The notes under the pieces were generated by a model. That model saw nothing but the letters and a program-made list of their open reading frames with translations. It was not told the DNA's origin and did not search any database. Below, piece after piece: positions 1 through 64,000 of a stretch of 64,000 bases of DNA; within the stretch, counting starts at the first letter, position 1, and each line of letters starts with the position of its first letter. This DNA comes from Primula veris. Lineage: Eukaryota; Streptophyta; Magnoliopsida; Ericales; Primulaceae. Position numbers and translations under genes: made by a program. Where the stretch lies: assembly GCA_963682055.1 (NCBI GenBank), contig OY821749.1, positions 18,426,631-18,490,630 of the forward strand. Direction: 5' to 3'.

Positions 1-220
1 TGTTAGTCCCGCCCTTAGCCTAGGCCATAGGTGGAGCTTAGGTGATTAGGCGGTTATTAAGCGGAATTACGCGTTAAATGACATATCTCTACCCGCCTTG
101 CCCCTTTTATAACATTGCACAATAAAGAACTAAACTACCAAATAACAAAGGATAATGAATAATTAATGAACCAAACTTGCCAAAACATAGAGCTAATCAA
201 ATATTTACTGCACTAAACAA

Positions 221-856
221 CTAAAACAACAAATAATATACTAGGAGATAAATGAACCAAACCTGGCATAAGCTACTAGGTCTCTCCCCCCAAAACTTAT
301 TATTAGAACCAAACAAGCCCCTAACCCCCCTTTCTCTCTCTACAAAACACTCTCTCTCTTCCACACTCCTCCCCCCTTCTTCCCTCTCTACAAAGTACTC
401 TCTCTCCTCCTCCTCCTCCTCCTCCTTGGCCCCGTCCCCCCTCCTCTCGGCCATAAACCCAAGCATCTCCTCCCTCTCCCCCACCTCTCTCTTAAGCTCC
501 TCGACCCTCTCCCTCATCTCTCCCTCCCTCTCCTCCAACTCCGCAACCCTCTCCCTCATCCCCTCGATCACTCCGACCAGTCTCCTCTCCTCAACCTGCC
601 ATGTGTGCCGGTGTCCAGCGAAGATCTCGACCACCCTCGCGTTGGCCTTTGAGTCCTCCTTCCGCCGTGACCGGAGCTCCCGGAGCTCCTCCTCCACGTC
701 AAGGAGGCGATTGTAGAGGTCGCGGTTACGGGATTGCAAGGCGGGGACGAGCGACGTGGCGCGGGTAGGGAGGAGGCCGAGGAAGACGGCAAAACTTACG
801 CCGATGTACGTGCGGAGGAGCTTCTCTGTACCACCGTCTTCTCCTTCCCCCGCCAT
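221..856 (-). CDS. Membrane-anchored coiled-coil protein, function unknown
   Basis: The frame reads 211 residues from an ATG at 856. Residues about 12-30 form a hydrophobic stretch that could be a signal anchor. Residues about 40-125 are a strongly heptad-like, Glu/Arg-rich coiled coil, and an acidic Glu run follows near residue 145. The last 13 residues are hydrophobic and read like intron translation. A CAG|GTTTGG donor lies in frame at 263/262, so the first exon may end at 263 (198 codons) and the gene may continue off the left edge; a single-exon gene is the alternative. A decayed relative lies at 5490-5715 on the same strand. The window is GC-rich here compared with its AT-rich surroundings, as expected for coding DNA. 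I do not recognise the family. Confidence 0.6.
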   Translation of the reverse strand: MAGEGEDGGTEKLLRTYIGVSFAVFLGLLPTRATSLVPALQSRNRDLYNRLLDVEEELRELRSRRKEDSKANARVVEIFAGHRHTWQVEERRLVGVIEGMRERVAELEEREGEMRERVEELKREVGEREEMLGFMAERRGDGAKEEEEEEEREYFVEREEGGRSVEERECFVERERGVRGLFGSNNKFWGERPSSLCQVWFIYLLVYYLLF

Positions 857-45154: not shown

Positions 45155-48100
45155 TTAATCGACAACCTTTTGTCCAGACGAGCCAGAGAAAATATTTCCA
45201 AATTTGTTGATTGGTGATTGAGAGTTGATCAAAGGCTCAGCGGCACGAGTTATATGAGGGATACTCCCAAGAGCTGCTTGTCTTTGCCTGTAGTTTGCCC
45301 AAGTCACCAAATATAGCCCCGCGATTATCAAAAATCCTCCCACAATGCTGTTTCAAAATGCAAAACCAGAGGGGAAACATTTAACAAAGCATAATTTTTT
45401 TAATTGCCCCGTTAGTGTTTAAGCTGTGTTTGGTAAAAATTCTAAGAAATGCAATCTGATTTTAAATATAAAAACCCCAGGAGGATATGCACGCCTGTTT
45501 TGTTTGGGAATCTGTTTCTAGGGAATAACTAGAAGATTTCCACATTTAAGAATGTACATCAAGTTATTTTCATACCCCATAATTTTACAGTAAAAAGACA
45601 CCAAGAATAAAATGAAATTGGCATAGGTTTTAGAGTTCTGAGTTCCAAAGCTACTGAAATAAGAACCAGAAAAAAAACTGGAAATGTTGAGATAAGAACA
45701 AAATGCCCCCCTGCTATTTGCAATGTTTCTAAAACGTACCAGGAAATAAAACTCAAAATTTCTGGTTCCAAATGAATTATATATCTTTTCTAAAAGTGAA
45801 TTTCCAATCAACCCAACAATAGTTTTGTCATGACTATACCAATCGGGTTAATTTATAAACTCAGGTGCTAACTGAAACTTAAATGTTGATAGCTTACCTT
45901 CCCAAATAAATAGGGCTTCCAAGGAAGATTCTTGAGAGAAAGGCAGATGCAGCGGGTTGAAGAGGGTTATAAAGAGCGACCAAAGCAGGTCCCAATATTT
46001 TATTAGACCATGTCAGCAGTCCATAATTAAGAGCAGATGCAACAATTCCCTGAAACAGCCGGCACATACATATATTATTGAAAAACCAAAGTTTCCATTT
46101 TCCAATGATTAATACTCACGCTGTATCATATTCAGTAGCCATTACAGGAAATAATTTTTTTTAGAGGGGACATCAATTGTTACATTGTCTCCTTGATAAC
46201 AGACTCATCTCCCTAGATAGTTTATTTATTACCTTTCATGAACCAAGGAGTAACAATTATGAACACTTAGGAAAAGTAGAACCTAGACATCTATTGTAAA
46301 AGTGGAGAGACTATAATGTAATCAATAAGTTTTTAATTTCATCATGAGCTATTGCACGTACATGTTTCATTTGGGGCTGTTGTACACGTTTTATTTAAGG
46401 CAACTGTGTATATATATGTACTTGACCTTTCCTCTGATAACCACAACTAATTAGTAATTACTGAACACTATTATACAAATTTTAGTGCTGATTCTCGGGA
46501 ATCCAAGCTATTCACGGAATAATTGAACCCGGCATTTGAAAGAAACGGTTGCTCAATTACAGTATTGATTTCAAAATTGAAGTTTTCTTCTGTAATAGCA
46601 TTTATACTAATCTCTAATGTGATAAACGAACCAGATTTGGTAAATCATATGGTAAAAAGAAGGGACTTACAGCATAAAGTACTGCAAAAAGCTCTGATTG
46701 GGTTAAACTCCAGTCTGTTGATTCATCAGTCATAAAAAAAGCTGTGACTACCATAAAAAGAACACCGAAGAAATATGAATACGCTGTCACTGATAGGCTG
46801 GCAGGGTACTTTGCAAGAACTGGAGCCTGTAAAGGTAATTTACGCAATGAGGCAAAAAGAGGAGCAAAGGGACAGTCATTCTTTTTCAGTACATTCAAAC
46901 AGAACAAGGTAATGGATAAAAGATTAAAACAAATACGAAAAAGTGGAAATAAAACGATCATTTCTGCTACTGATGGGTGATATATGAACAAAATTGTAGA
47001 CAGAAGAAATGATTAGACACTTTAGTTCAAACCGACTTAATACAGTAGATTCTCAATATCATTCAAAGTAATAACTAAAGAATTTAAAGATCCTCTTATG
47101 GCCAATAAAAAGAGATCCTCTGCAAATCTGCATATACTTTTTTAAGTACTAACATATATTTTAAAGAATATTCAGCAGAATCCATCTTTAACCCACTTTG
47201 ATTTTTTTTGATATCAAAGTGAAAGTTCAAACACCATGTTTAAGACAATAGAGTTTTCTTCTTCTTCTTTCTTTATTGCCAGAAGATCATTAAGATAAAT
47301 GAGTAGCATATCATCCATAGAAACTAAGGACACACTAAGGATAAACCATTCTTGTTGGCAAAAATATTTAAGTGTTCACTTATTTAGCTGCCAATTTCTC
47401 CTGTACTCTAGTATATGTACTAAGGATATGTTCATAAAGTATGGGGAAAACATCCCAACTGGCAAGATTACAATATCTTTCTTATTTCAAGATTACACCT
47501 CCGAACTCGCATACATCATCTAGGACATTGACGGGTCTTATAATCTCTCACGTTAAAGATTCCTGCAGTATGGTCTCATTTTAAGCTAGACAAGATATGC
47601 TACAGTTATTTCACATAATGGAAGCTTTTAAAAACGTCATGCAAAGGATATGCAAACAATAATTGTACAGATCGATACCAAAGCAATATATAGTCAGCAT
47701 GGTAATGATAAATGTCATAACTGCTACATCATATTTAACCAACAATTTCGTTGTTAACCTTCCTAAAGAAAAAAAATATATTTTTGCTGCAAAAATATCA
47801 TGACATTGATTCTTACCTGAATGGCTAAATAAGCTGCCATGCACATAGTGTTTCCAATTAAGCACAACACACCAATGTGCCAGTTGTCAAGTCCAAACCC
47901 TATGAAACTAGACAACAACCAACCTGCAGGTTCTGGTTGACCCTTCGCACTTATTTCAACATTTTGTGCAAAATCTGTATATCCAAAAAGGGCTGGGCCT
48001 CTAAATAAAACCATTAATATGGCTCCGAAAACACACACGAGAGTACCACCAACCTTAACCTGGCCTTCAGTTTTGAGCAAGTTCACTCTTTCTGTACTGG

Positions 48101-50485
48101 ACACGAATAAGATTTACATATCATATTAAACAAAAGAAACTATGGTAAGACATTCTTGAGCAAATAAGTTATAATCGAAATTAAAAGAAATGCTTTAGCT
48201 ACCCGTAAAATATTCCAACCCCATCAAATTAAAAGAAATGCTTTAGAAAGACATTCTTGAGAAAAATAGTTATTGTTACTTGTGCCACATTAAAAGTGTC
48301 GAGTGTATTCCAATGAAAAAGTATGGCTACAATGCATGGTAAGATTTATTGGAGGGGTCTACCATTATTGAATATCTAATTTTGGTACAAGCATACATGT
48401 ATTATGTAAATAAGGAAAACAAAAAAGAACCAGAATGTTTAAAAAGAAGAAAATCAGTAAACTGACCCCATCATTACGGCCAATATAAAGGTGAAGACTG
48501 GGATTGCAGGTTGTATAGCTGCAGCATAAGTTGGATTCGTATATCCAAGACCTAGAAGAAATAAAAGCTGGTTCCCAAATATCCTGTACGGACATATGAA
48601 AATAAGCCATTCAAATAGAGTAAATCCAGAAGAAAAAGAACAATTACAGAATTACTTATACCTAAAACCTAAAAATGCTTATAACTTCTACTCACCCAGT
48701 TAACCCGAGAAAGACAAATGACATGAGGAGTTGTCGAGTCATAGGTGGTCTAGTTCTTCTGCAAGCACAAAATATAAATTGTATCAAACAAATGCTATTT
48801 TACGGAATTCTCAGTCATAAATACGAGCTCAAACAAGCTGGCGCCAGCATCACAACTTAACTACTGCTCATTCTCATTAGTTTAAAGGTAAATATTGATC
48901 AAGAAGCAAACCAAAGCAAAGAATAAAATATGAGGAGCAATATCTTAAACCCACTGATTAGAGTTAACCTACAAAAACCCCAGTCTGAGCTTTTGTTAGC
49001 ACTAAATAAATCCATTTTAAATACAATAATGTAGCCTAGTTTCCTGCATTAAGTCCATAATCACAAACATTATAAAGAACCAATCATTACTTACCACACC
49101 AAAATTACGGTTTTTCTTTTTATCAATCCGATGTAAGGAATTCAGATCAGGCCCCAAGTTCAACCGTTACTTAAAATGACCTCAATATCTAACATCTAGC
49201 TATTAATGTATGATTCTCACAACAATAAGACACGATAAATTTTCAGTTTATCTATCAGATATAAATTAAAATGAATCTGATCCAGATTCAAAGACTTATA
49301 AGCAAATGAAAGCCACTAATATTCAGCCTTTTCTTCAATCCAAAGTAACCAATTTGTCACTCAAATAAAGAAAACCACAGACATTTAAGAAAGATTCTAG
49401 ATTAATTCTTCTACCAAAAATTACAAAAATAAGTAAATAATATGTATAGCATCTCAAATTTCACATTTCCATTTAAAAACTCTAGATACAACTATACAAA
49501 ACACGTAAAAGAATTACCCTAGTTTCTCTCAAGGAAGGATCCTTTAATGTGCAAGGGGGGTCAGTGCCTCCCCGGTCTGTAGAAAGAATTAAAACATATA
49601 ATTTTTTTTTCCGTTTTTTCAAGTATATGTATATGTTACCTGTTTAGATATATAATATTTAATGTAAATAATATTAAAACTTATGCCACTAGACTAGTGG
49701 ATAGTTCTTTGTTTTAGGTACTACATGTCCTCAGCTCAAATCTTTTTACTTCCCGTCTATTTTCTTTTAAAACATTATATTATTAATACAAAAGGAAATC
49801 CATTACTTTTACTCTTTCGATCTTTTACTATCTCTATTCCGGTGGACCTCTATACACAAAATGCATATTATAAAATTATCTCAAAGCTTTGTATAATTGT
49901 GCTCTCCTTCATTTGGACCCGGGGTCCTTTCTAAAAAAAACACAAAAATATAAGCAGTATATATAACTATCACAAGAAATTAGTAACAAAAAAGGAAATT
50001 GTTTATCACGAGAGTGCATAAAGAAATGCTGAGTATGTGTTCACGATGTTAGGATTTGCTATACAGAGAGGATAAAAGTGGTGCAATTTGTTGTCTAAAC
50101 GGAGCTTTTTGACCAAAAAAGGTAATGCCAAACGGACCCATAGATAGATAGATAAAGGAAGAGAGAATGATATATAAATAAATAAATATACATAATCAAG
50201 AATTAGTGACATTCACATCAAAACCAAAGCAAAAATGTTTAAACATAGATATAGATACAGAGAGAGGGGGGGATACTGTTCACGGAAGAAGGCGAAAGGA
50301 GTGAGAATGAAGAGAGCGAGTAAGTCACGGTACAAACAAAACACCAATTGGTTTACTCCGACGTTGAGCGCCACCTTTGTGATAACGTGGTATCCTCCGT
50401 AACACATCTGAACCACCACCATCGCCGCCTGTGCCCTTGCCACTTCTCCTCCTCCTCCTCCTCCGTTACCGTTCATCGCCATCAC
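45155..50485 (-). CDS. WAT1-related (UMAMIT/EamA) transporter, complete, 7 exons
   Basis: Exons in transcription order: 50485-50277, 48758-48696, 48583-48467, 48096-47817, 46826-46671, 46049-45898 and 45347-45155, joined to 1170 nt, 389 residues. It has two EamA repeats with about ten membrane segments. It matches, as remembered, the At4g19185/At5g45370 subgroup of WAT1-related proteins: [20 protein letters not shown] in exon 1, [20 protein letters not shown] in exon 3, [20 protein letters not shown] and the [18 protein letters not shown] loop in exon 4, [20 protein letters not shown] and [16 protein letters not shown] in exon 6. UMAMIT members move amino acids or auxin across plasma or vacuolar membranes; the cargo of this subgroup is not established. 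Start: ATG at 50485 or the third-codon ATG at 50479. All introns are GT-AG. Confidence 0.94.
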
Positions 50486-56360: not shown

Positions 56361-56588
56361 TTAACTAGTAAAAACTAACCTTTCACGGAGGAAAGCGACC
56401 GGAGCGAGGATGAAGAAGGCGATAACGTCACGGTAAACACAGAAGACGAGATGGTTAGCACCGGCGTTGAGAGCCACCTTGGTGATGACGTGGTACCCTC
56501 CGTTGAACATCTGTACCATTATCAATGCCACATGTGCTTTCCATATTTGTCCTCCTCCTCCATCTAGATAATAATCAATTGCTTTCAT
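56361..56588 (-). pseudogene. Orphan WAT1-related first exon with an intact frame
   Basis: The minus frame from 56588 reads 75 residues, including KAHVALIMVQMFNGGYHVIT and VALNAGANHLVFCVYRDVIA, clearly homologous to exon 1 of the 45155-50485 gene and, like it, ending after an Arg-Glu at an AG|GTTAGT donor (about 56381/56380). The ORF then stops five codons into the would-be intron. Exons 2-7 are not present before the decayed copy at 54.8 kb, so a full transporter cannot be made from this place. A two-helix peptide could be made if it is transcribed. Most likely it is the remaining head of a truncated tandem duplicate. Confidence 0.75.
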
Positions 56589-60635: not shown

Positions 60636-60985
60636 AATATATATTCTTCTAAATCTCCTTAAAAAAAGTAATGCGTGGATATGATGTTTATAGTTTTTGT
60701 GAAGGGTATGGCAAGATACTTAATAGTATCTTGAACATCGACTACATGAGTAGTACGTTTCACATAAAAACGGACCCCAAAAAAACATGGAGTTTGCTAA
60801 TTCCTGCCATTGATATACTCGTATAATTTGGATATACACTATGTTGAGTCTTGTCTTGCCTTGCATAGATGAATGTGCATGATGAGTTTAATTATCCTCA
60901 AAATCGTGTATGAAGTATGAACTGTTAGAAACTAAATAAGTGCAGAAAAAGAGAGAAAAAAACGTTTTACTGAAAATATGATACT

Positions 60986-61686
60986 ATGATGCAGTTTTGG
61001 GTTCGTATGACTCGTGGTCGTGGCTGTTAAAACGTCCATCAGCGGTGAATAATTTTGAACATATGATGAGAATCGCAGACGGGAGAAAGATAGTTGTATT
61101 TTTGGACTATGATGGGACCCTCTTGAATATTGTAGACAACCCTGATAAAGCATTTATGACTAAAAAGATGCAAGCAGCAGTAAGTGAGGTGGCATGCCAT
61201 TTTCCGACTGCAATTATAAGTGGGAGAAGTCGTGATAAGGGAATACTTGGTTCAGCGCTTGCATTGACATTGATGATGTGGGGTGTCAGAGCTAGAGGGG
61301 CGCTTTATGTTTCGGTTTTCAGTCCTTTGATGTTAATTCTAGTTGCAATCCTTGCCTCGTTATTGACACATGAGAAGTTGCACGTTGGAAGCGTGATAGG
61401 AGGTGGAATCATTATTTGCGGCTTATATGTTTGTCTCTGGGGCATGGGTAAAGAGATGAAAAACCCGTCTGCATATAAAACAATGGAGGAATTTTCAGCA
61501 GATTCACATGTTTTTCAGGAAAAACTCGAAAACCCAAACTTATCTATGAAAGAATCCATGAATGGTTTAGCAGAAGTATAGATTGTGGTTCCTCCAGAAA
61601 GAAGATAAATGTATTATGTTACATATTGTCTTTGTAATTATTAAGAGAAAGCATACGTACATAAATGTGTATGATTCATCTAAAAA
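60986..61686 (+). mobile_element. Chimeric retrocopy insertion with poly(A) and 13-bp target-site duplication
   Basis: The inserted block is flanked by a perfect direct repeat AAAATATGATACT (60973-60985 and 61687-61699). It ends in an A-run (61682-61690, shared with the duplication) after a 3' UTR of about 100 nt, and it carries no intron. These are the marks of LINE-machinery reverse transcription of a polyadenylated, spliced RNA. The target begins with A's, matching priming of a poly(A) tail on a T-rich nick. The left end starts inside a phosphatase coding region, so the copy is 5'-truncated. Confidence 0.85.
60997..61581 (+). CDS. Fusion frame: trehalose-6-phosphate phosphatase fragment joined to WAT1/UMAMIT C terminus
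   Basis: One open frame runs from 60982 to the TAG at 61579-61581; I start the entry at a TTG (60997), but the first in-frame ATG is at 61063, giving 172 residues. Upstream codons (60997-61239) match trehalose-6-phosphate phosphatase: GSYDSW, KRPSAV, the HAD motif I VVFLDYDGTL (nucleophile Asp at 61105) and CHFPTAIISGRSRDK. From 61240 the frame becomes the end of a WAT1-related transporter: GILGSALALTLMMWGVRARG, FSPLMLILVAILASLL, HEKLHVGSVIGG and CGLYVCLWGMGKEMK, then a polar tail. HAD motifs II-IV are missing, so phosphatase activity is not expected. About three membrane segments remain. Whether it is expressed is unknown; an unselected retropseudogene young enough to lack stops is the plain alternative. 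Confidence 0.7.
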   Translation: MGSYDSWSWLLKRPSAVNNFEHMMRIADGRKIVVFLDYDGTLLNIVDNPDKAFMTKKMQAAVSEVACHFPTAIISGRSRDKGILGSALALTLMMWGVRARGALYVSVFSPLMLILVAILASLLTHEKLHVGSVIGGGIIICGLYVCLWGMGKEMKNPSAYKTMEEFSADSHVFQEKLENPNLSMKESMNGLAEV

Positions 61687-61699
61687 AAAATATGATACT

Positions 61700-64000
61700 G
61701 AACACCCTTTCTTAGTGCCGAAAATTCTGTATTAAAAATGTCAGCAAGAATTTATAAGTTTTTTAGAATATTTCCTCATGGTTAATTTAAAAAAGAAAAA
61801 GAAAATACGATACTATGGACCTATGGTCATCCAAGAGAAAGGGAAACTTATAAAGCTTAAAAACCCAAGGTACTTCAGAGTTAAAAATAATTACTAAGAA
61901 GCATGCTAATATGACAAATACATGTAATACCAACTTGAAATTAGTAAAACCCCAACTTGAAAAAGTAATATACCACAACACAATGTACTGTTATGAATTA
62001 CTCCAATGACTTGTACATTTCTATTTGTAAATATTGTATGTCTGTAACTTCCCAAAATCAAGAGGTACAAGCTGTGAGCATTTTGAGCCACCGGGCATAG
62101 AATCCAAGCAATTCATGAATCACGAGGCTATTAAAACTAGTCAAAAAGAAAAGGGCATATGTGATTATTAAGTTAAGATTTAGGCACTAGTGGGAATAAA
62201 ATTTAAAAATTCCCCCTATATCTTGATAGATAAAAAAAAGAATACAAGTTGAGGTTAGGAAAAGAAATCCATCAAACGAACTATGCACCAACTTGTCTCC
62301 ACCAGTCAATATCTTCAAATTTCTGTCTTGGTGCTCTTCAAACAAATATTTAAACATAGTATAAACTAAAAATATTATAATATACGATATTCTAGCATAA
62401 AAAATCTGGAATCTTATTGATGGGTTCGTCTTTAATCATTTTATCGCTATCTAAAATAATAGTAAGAGATTAAAAGGTAGGGAGAAGAGATCAGGTGGAA
62501 TACTAACTGGGGAGAGACTTTAATTAGTACTTTACCTTAGCATCTAACTACAACTTTTACATTAATAAACTATGCTACATATTAATAAATATAAAGAGAA
62601 AATAATGGGTATCTCCGATTTCGGCGATAAGCAAATGTTGAAAACTACAATAAGAAAAGAAGATCCTTAGAAATATTAAAATAGAAGAGCATATCGGCCA
62701 GGAATATATAGTTGATTAGTTACATATATACTCACCAACCTTTTTATTGATACTGATAACACATTGAAAAAAATGTCTTTTGTTCAAAAATAAAATAAAA
62801 TACTCATATCATTAATAAAAGCAAACATATCTCAAAGGGTATCATTTGACCAGGTAGAACTTTTGCTCCATTTTCAACCGCTAGGTTGTAGCGAGTATTT
62901 TGCCCGAACGGACCTGAGATTGTGATAATCATGTCCGTACTAACAAAGAAGGAACAAGGGCAAAACTTAATCTCAAACATAAAAGTTAATCACAACAAAA
63001 CACTTAATGAAACTATTATGAATAAAAATCACCTTAATGCAATCATTTTGGAGTAATATACTAGTACTATTCTCAAGTCTCAAAATCCTTATGGAGATAT
63101 CGTCAATAAAGATGCAAACCAAAAAAGTGTTCTACCAAAATAACTACATGAAGAAGTGTTATTTTCATATATTCTAAACAGCAAGTCTTTTTTCAACAGT
63201 TGTTAAAGAAATAAGGGAAAAGAAAAAAGCTAAAAAAAATCCTTTTTTCTTTTTCTTTCTTTTTCATCATCATTATGAATAGTGACTCGAAGTAATAAGG
63301 ATATCTCTATTAAAGTAGTGCCACTCTAGTGATGTTCTATCAAAAAAAGAGAAATAATATTTGAAAAGATAGGGTAATAGATGGAGCTTTATTCTCGTAG
63401 ACTTGCCTTTCACCTTTATGCGTACTACATTTTGTGGATGCTTTTTCACATGGGTTTGTTCAAGCACACTGCACATCTAACTAATTATTAAACACAGCAA
63501 TCTTCATCACCACCACACACATGAAAACACAAACAAAAGAGTAGTACATAGATATATAGATATATAAACTCAAGATTAATTTATATGTACTCTATTTAGA
63601 AACTTATTTCTGTAAACACGACTAGAAGATTGGTGTTGTTCCTTAAGTTCTACACTGATTGGCGATTCTGCAATCGAATTTAGAAACTTTAAACAGTCGA
63701 GTTTTACTGCAGGATGCTAAGTGAAGGTGAAAGAGCAAAGAATTGAAAGATGTATCCATCATAATTCCAAGACATGAAAGTACAACCAGAAAAACATGTC
63801 AAAATGGAGATCAAGATGGACAAATATAAAATGCACAAAGTATACTTATGATAAGATGATGCAATTAGTTAAAGGCCAACCAAACATCCTTATAATTAAG
63901 TAATTAGCGTGAGTAGGAAGCACTATCATGACCTTTTGATCAATTCAGTAGTTCTAAGTGCCCCTGATTTCAATATAAATCTATAAAGCAAACTATCGGG
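61700..64000. other. Gene-free AT-rich right end
   Basis: No convincing coding frame, RNA gene or structured repeat on either strand up to the edge. A gene could begin beyond the edge. Confidence 0.45.

Follow-up and report, generated by a model that had tools for sequence, protein, structure and literature searches.

A 64,000-nt stretch of the Primula veris genome (the window; C10:18426631-18490630, C10 being its contig in an assembly of 436.5 Mb and 34 contigs) carries at positions 60986-61686 an intron-less gene copy in which part of a trehalose-6-phosphate phosphatase (TPP) gene is fused in frame to part of a UMAMIT/WAT1 transporter gene, with a flanking 13-bp duplication and a terminal A-run. 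This copy is probably the 3' end of a chimeric RNA, 5'-truncated inside TPP exon a and inserted with L1-type hallmarks, and we consider it rather likely that two further loci, on contigs C12 and C7, keep pieces of the same RNA or of its relatives. As to how such an RNA arose, we favor, with moderate confidence, a mosaic DNA locus that was transcribed, spliced and retroposed, which fits the joints between the parts better than template switching between mRNAs.

A TPP part and a UMAMIT part are joined exon to exon in one open frame

An earlier, sequence-only reading of the window had described a perfect 13-bp flanking duplication, a terminal A-run and one uninterrupted frame, all of which we recovered (Table 1). 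The frame is open from 60982 to 61581 (199 amino acids), continues across the TPP/UMAMIT joint and has its first in-frame ATG at codon 28, which leaves 172 codons. The assignment of the two halves to their families was likewise borne out: Pfam places Trehalose_PPase at residues 40-86 (E 3.1e-10; positions 1-49 of 235 in the profile) and EamA at residues 87-151 (E 5.2e-8; positions 69-133 of 135), both above the cut-off. A 6-bp tandem duplication of TCGTGG at 61012-61023 is found neither in the TPP parent on contig C6 nor in the sister copy on C12.

The parent of the TPP part is a gene on the minus strand of C6 (C6:28942352-28943292) or a close relative of that gene. Its exons a, b and c lie at 5294-5194, 5004-4864 and 4433-4362 of the piece that was read (L008), with GT donors and AG acceptors; exon b is bounded by cag/TTAAAA and AAAAAG/gtagta, and exon c ends in CGTGATACG/gtact (slashes mark exon edges). 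Against C6 there are 10 mismatches over 248 bases in the window copy and 9 over 299 in the C12 copy, and the TPP changes that can be polarized comprise eight private to C10, five to C12 and two to C6. The best named TPP matches came from Camellia, Actinidia and Bertholletia and were 69-80% identical across some 40% of the query.

The switch between families had been placed at 61239/61240, and the exon structure of the parent and relatives agrees: the TPP sequence runs up to the final base of exon c, at the parent's donor, and the UMAMIT sequence begins at an exon start that reads ag/GGAAT in four relatives (on C1, on C6, at C4:4495934 and at position 46049 of the window). A frame-damaged relative on C8 has aag/GGAAT at the equivalent place; in C4:10380049 and C4:196690 the exon start lies outside the matched stretch. 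Two TPP introns, judged against the parent, and one UMAMIT intron, judged against the relatives, have been lost from the window copy. The latter, which follows YLG-S in the intact WAT1-related gene of the window (HVG-S in the copy), had been read as showing that a spliced transporter RNA was used, and its absence here relative to those genes supports that reading.

A search of the same genome for both parents, as had been suggested, succeeded for TPP and yielded no close parent for UMAMIT. The candidate-limited DNA search with the UMAMIT half gave two matches, the C10 and C12 copies, and a protein search returned 22 locations; leaving aside the copies, the top three reached 53-62%. C8:24409641 was considered as the UMAMIT parent and rejected as distant and frame-damaged. 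Named relatives of this half were two Macadamia proteins (50 and 59%, from a word-limited search) and a Telopea protein (61%). The minus strand of the window holds additional matches to WAT1-related exons (45296-46049, 50261-50422 and 56379-56525), about 4.5-16 kb from the retrocopy and not close to its UMAMIT half.

Two other origins raised by the earlier reading, parents adjacent in the genome and the same fusion with introns at another locus, found no counterpart. Apart from a 1-kb gap, the ~55 kb to either side of the TPP gene on C6 contained no match with E < 0.1 to UMAMIT, to the sulfate transporter (SULTR) or to the phosphoethanolamine methyltransferase (PEAMT) discussed below, and adjacent parents were rejected on finding only short matches there (E 0.10-0.31). 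Own-genome DNA searches, in which the best candidates were scored, detected no intron-bearing TPP-UMAMIT fusion. No TPP-UMAMIT fusion protein occurred, by the Pfam column, among the 120 matches listed of 242, and term searches of open-licence PMC papers turned up none on a TPP/WAT1-related chimeric gene or on co-retroposition making chimeric plant retrocopies.

The window copy has L1-type hallmarks and adjoins a probable earlier insert

The target-site duplications of target-primed (L1-type) retrocopies measure ~7-20 bp. The 13-mer that flanks the window copy starts with AAAA, and a 13-base match has a chance of p ~9e-8 per position pair given the base composition, or ~1.5e-4 with 41 x 41 offsets. 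The tail is short, nine A, of which four are common with the duplication. The nick site reads ACTG/AAAA, so that the AAAA of the canonical TT/AAAA is present and the TT is absent.

The reading of this duplication is complicated by the sequence downstream, designated X, since 9 of the 13 duplicated bases also occur in its relative on C5. The identity between X and C5 includes the bases TATGATACT before GAACACC, and in the window X has an A-rich run on its 3' side that the C5 relative lacks. After this second A-rich run stands a third copy of the 13-mer, with 12 of 13 bases. Compared with 801 bases of C5, the 5' flank gave no match besides X, the window AT repeat and short low-score ones. X is probably an earlier small retro-insert adjoining the window copy, and the three copies of the target motif suggest repeated insertion at one nick site. 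The simplest account would be two insertions at that site, in which X came first, its 5' end joined to the target motif by microhomology, and was followed by the chimeric retrocopy, which duplicated the 13-mer. Alternatively, one event may have sufficed if it included a jump from one RNA to another, in which case the identity of the repeats would be partly due to chance.

Table 1. Features of the window retrocopy and its downstream flank, joints of the C12 copy, and matches obtained with the C12 query
Feature	Position	Strand	Detail or evidence
13-bp target-site duplication, 5' copy	60973..60985	+	AAAATATGATACT
Two bases between duplication and first TPP-aligned base, perhaps untemplated	60986..60987	+	
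TPP exon a, 3' part, 5'-truncated	60988..61026	+	29/30 bases to C6 exon a in first block; three-way alignment
TPP exon b, with DYDGT motif	61027..61167	+	138/142 to C6, including one exon a base
TPP exon c, end at exact donor position of parent	61168..61239	+	C6 alignment
UMAMIT/WAT1 exon, start at exact acceptor position of related genes	61240..61391	+	Exon starts of relatives
Final UMAMIT coding exon and stop codon; intron after HVG-S gone	61392..61581	+	Relatives
3' UTR and A-run (61682-61690) of retroposed transcript	61582..61690	+	
13-bp duplication, 3' copy	61687..61699	+	AAAATATGATACT; its AAAA overlaps the A-run
Sequence X, probable earlier retro-insert	61690..61783	+	97.9% over 94 bases to C5:25388590-25388683
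A-rich run after X, continuing into AAAA of third motif	61789..61801	+	
Third target-motif copy	61802..61814	+	AAAATACGATACT; 17-mer 61801-61817 is 16/17 to 60972-60988
RVT_3 to PEAMT joint	C12 240/241		Donor GTGAAA/GTATGG (read in one C6 array copy of 10) to acceptor CTCAG/GACAAACCC; exact on both sides
PEAMT splice	C12 394/395		Normal
PEAMT exon end	C12 433/434		Then TTCAT, first five bases of next PEAMT exon
PEAMT to SULTR break	C12 438/439		Intra-exon, ~96 bases past SULTR exon start (read from sequence)
SULTR splices	C12 459/460 and 593-595		Normal
Break inside SULTR exon	C12 635/636		Then 18 unassigned bases
TPP exon a start	C12 653/654		One base differing
TPP a/b, b/c and c/UMAMIT joints	C12		Exact
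Query matches, C12 itself and window			2
Query matches, TPP exons	C6		3
Query matches, PEAMT exons	C3		4 (two tandem genes)
Query matches, SULTR			5 (two are neighboring C11 exons)
Query match on C7	Query 73-390		1
Query matches, RVT_3 array and C4	Query 73/74-241		11 (10 in C6:32.67-32.86 Mb array, 1 on C4)
Query matches with start 59-73 and end 138-200			15

A second copy on C12 and a third locus on C7 reveal further sources

A second intron-less copy with the same TPP/UMAMIT joint lies at C12:5443742-5444179 (minus strand) and is 91% identical to the window copy. In an alignment of 440 bases the two copies differ at 24. A 14-bp deletion breaks its frame and its UMAMIT similarity ends at GGGGCAT, whereas the window copy continues to the stop codon, 3' UTR and A-run, so neither copy, as they stand, would be the source of the other. 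On the same strand, 5' of TPP, C12 carries spliced pieces of an RNase-H-type (RVT_3) element, of PEAMT and of SULTR. The earlier reading was right to describe the window locus as a fused TPP-UMAMIT retrocopy, but its count of two unrelated mRNAs is too low, as C12 shows at least five sources.

A genome search with 1301 C12 bases gave 41 matches (Table 1), and intron-bearing parents were found for TPP on C6, PEAMT on C3 and SULTR on C11. PEAMT was named via the solved-structure sequences 5wp4 and 5wp5, and SULTR via 9u9f, more distant transporters and Pfam Sulfate_transp. Those PEAMT, SULTR and TPP introns that were looked at are absent from C12. Two cross-gene joints run from exon to exon (RVT_3/PEAMT and TPP/UMAMIT), and two lie inside exons (PEAMT-SULTR and SULTR-18 nt-TPP). 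Allowing up to 3-4 mismatches, we could not place the 18 bases that precede TPP in either the 9-kb TPP locus or the adjoining 10 kb on its upstream side.

A third chimeric locus, at C7:12991880-12993100, consists of RVT_3/PEAMT and then different sequence. C7 and C12 have in common both the RVT_3/PEAMT joint and a 2-bp PEAMT deletion, which does not occur in the PEAMT gene used for comparison, one of a tandem pair, and from this we infer that they came from one already degenerate source. C12 therefore overlaps the window copy through TPP/UMAMIT and C7 through RVT_3/PEAMT. Since the C12 copy has no clear flanking duplication or A-tail, the view that C12 and C7 are probably retrocopies rests on intron loss. 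An 11-mer pair flanking the C12 copy (L007 6319 and 3833) was not convincing as a duplication. An LTR element around it was rejected as well, there being no bracketing direct repeat >60 bp within ~15 kb on each side, nor in 10 kb; this search would miss a larger element, and two short AT-rich pairs (I10 and I11) are inverted rather than direct. Just downstream of the copy is a palindromic, MITE-like stretch (L007:4003-4452 on C12) between repeats GAAGAAATTAGG, recognized by eye, and a MULE transposase frame and L1-type LINE remnants occur within ~15 kb (L030:6974-8665 and L031:5064-7932).

The joints favor splicing of a proposed mosaic locus over template switching

The mixture of exact exon-exon and intra-exon joints led us to propose a mosaic locus whose transcript was spliced and retroposed. 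In such a locus, RVT_3 (LINE-type RNase H), PEAMT, SULTR, TPP and UMAMIT pieces would have adjoined in one orientation with their introns kept. Where the DNA breakpoints fell in introns, cis-splicing would make exact exon-exon joints (RVT_3/PEAMT and TPP/UMAMIT), and where they fell in exons, the joints would stay inside exons (PEAMT-SULTR and SULTR-18 nt-TPP). The resulting long, chimeric, spliced and polyadenylated RNA would then have served as a template for L1-type (target-primed) reverse transcription and insertion, and the window copy would represent its 3' end. Candidate-limited searches of the assembly found no intron-bearing source locus. The absence of both this locus and a close UMAMIT gene could be explained if a UMAMIT gene with the mosaic insert in an intron had been lost or was unassembled. 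With regard to capture by a DNA transposon, the candidate-limited searches found no intron-bearing mosaic locus, and the C12 and C10 copies are intron-less.

The RVT_3 piece bears on the nature of the mobilizing element. The piece occurs in many copies and represents the end of a frame for an RNase H-like (RVT_3) domain, matched at E 2.3e-10 in a C6 array copy (one stop written as X); in plant LINEs of the L1 type, ORF2 ends with such a domain. The array, at C6:32669072-32855857, holds ten copies of the piece ~11-43 kb apart, one of which was read. The piece in the chimera resembles those of the array at 87-89%, which is too low to single out its parent. As a special case of the mosaic-locus explanation, a LINE with RVT_3 as its 3' end might have been transcribed past that end into mosaic or genic DNA lying downstream, the read-through RNA being spliced and copied by the LINE's machinery, with the window copy as a 5'-truncated, LINE-less 3' transduction. 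We regard this version as tentative. Besides the RVT_3 match itself, it is favored by the position of the piece, which leads the chimera in both C7 and C12 with different 5' ends, by an A-run soon after the stop in a dispersed copy (one of 15, the one read), and by the LINE remnants ~10-12 kb from the C12 copy, which contain DUF4283 and an Exo_endo_phos match below the cut-off. However, no RT domain attached to the piece was seen in 600, 500 and 400 upstream bases, which look largely non-coding, and RVT_3 could be merely another captured fragment. A broader form, possible but doubtful, is that an L1-type element acted as a repeated exon trap, in which read-through RNA from the RNase H end gained exons from four or more host genes by splicing and underwent retroposition on three or more occasions (C7, C10 and C12), yielding a small retroposon family of host exons with at least one in-frame fusion.

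Template switching, in which reverse transcriptase passed from UMAMIT mRNA to TPP, SULTR, PEAMT and RVT_3 RNA and produced one chimeric cDNA, similar to Bs1 but without LTRs, appears unlikely. The two intra-exon cross-gene joints count against the mosaic-locus explanation insofar as they are also expected from template switching, which may have produced these two, and Bs1 shows that a plant retroelement can capture several genes (PMC13317346). Nevertheless, the joints TPP/UMAMIT and RVT_3/PEAMT coincide exactly with exon edges on either side, a precision that a random switch would reach at one joint in about 1 of 10,000 cases (a rough estimate from approximate exon numbers), and no direct repeat pair >60 bp brackets C12 within ~15 kb on each side. 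The sequence-only reading had offered template switching or the copying of a chimeric transcript; the second fits, and the first fits less well because the joint unites an exon end with an exon start and is identical at C12. Trans-splicing of separate TPP and UMAMIT pre-mRNAs followed by retroposition would also give an exact exon-exon joint between genes not found near each other, but it would need several events per RNA and leaves the intra-exon joints of C12 unexplained, which makes it very improbable.

The open frame is unlikely to be functional

The window frame is very unlikely to represent an expressed fusion gene under selection. Its 199 codons are open, and the substitution rates that had been proposed as a check gave dN 0.037 and dS 0.108 between C10 and C12 (145 codons) and dN 0.026 and dS 0.060 between C10 and the C6 TPP gene (82 codons), but these values rest on few changes and include the evolution of C6 and of the source. 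By our estimate, a frame could stay open by chance through this small number of changes; moreover, the C12 frame is broken by its deletion, and the first ATG of the window frame comes late. The TPP part has the DYDGT motif and lacks most of the phosphatase profile, and the UMAMIT part, which covers a portion of one EamA unit, is the end of a transporter. Judged by its sequence, a function of the 199-amino-acid frame thus seems unlikely, and we provisionally take the frame to be open by chance.

Relation to known chimeric transcripts and retrocopies

Most of the well-known retroposed chimeras are from animals, and among plant retroelements gene capture is best documented for LTR elements, of which maize Bs1 is one. 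The window retrocopy is a variant on the co-retroposition of PIPSL, the chimeric splicing of Tgm-Express1, and Bs1. PIPSL is a hominoid co-retroposed gene whose parents are linked in tandem, and both it and the window copy are one retrocopy from a single RNA joining two genes, as PIPSL is presented in that account (PMC2773790), although the RNA is here deduced from its copies. In contrast to PIPSL, no gene for any other part was found within ~55 kb of the C6 TPP gene (PEAMT is on C3 and SULTR on C11), and there are at least five sources and a second fusion copy. In soybean, Tgm-Express1 is a transposon with five gene fragments in an F3H intron that gives rise to spliced chimeric RNAs, and its unrelated gene fragments are likewise spliced at canonical sites (PMC1947982). 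There the DNA element is known and the available text of the report describes no retrocopy, whereas here only intron-less copies were found and the DNA mosaic is a proposal.

An A-run, a target-site duplication and lost introns also characterize L1-like retrocopies of dicots, among them one in cassava with a 13-bp duplication containing one mismatch (PMC4838847). As far as that description extends, they have single-gene parents and TTAAAA in the best case, in contrast with ACTGAAAA here. Bs1 resembles the present chimera in that pieces of several host genes are carried together by a retroelement, according to the portion of the literature on it that is available (PMC13317346). It differs in that no direct repeat was found to bracket C12 within 15 kb and the window copy has L1-type hallmarks. 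The exact joints, the intra-exon joints, the intron loss, the 13-bp duplication and the sister copies, all within one genome, allow an order of events (DNA mosaic, splicing and L1-type copying) to be proposed and tested. How a chimeric RNA turns into a heritable fused frame can thereby be tested in a plant.
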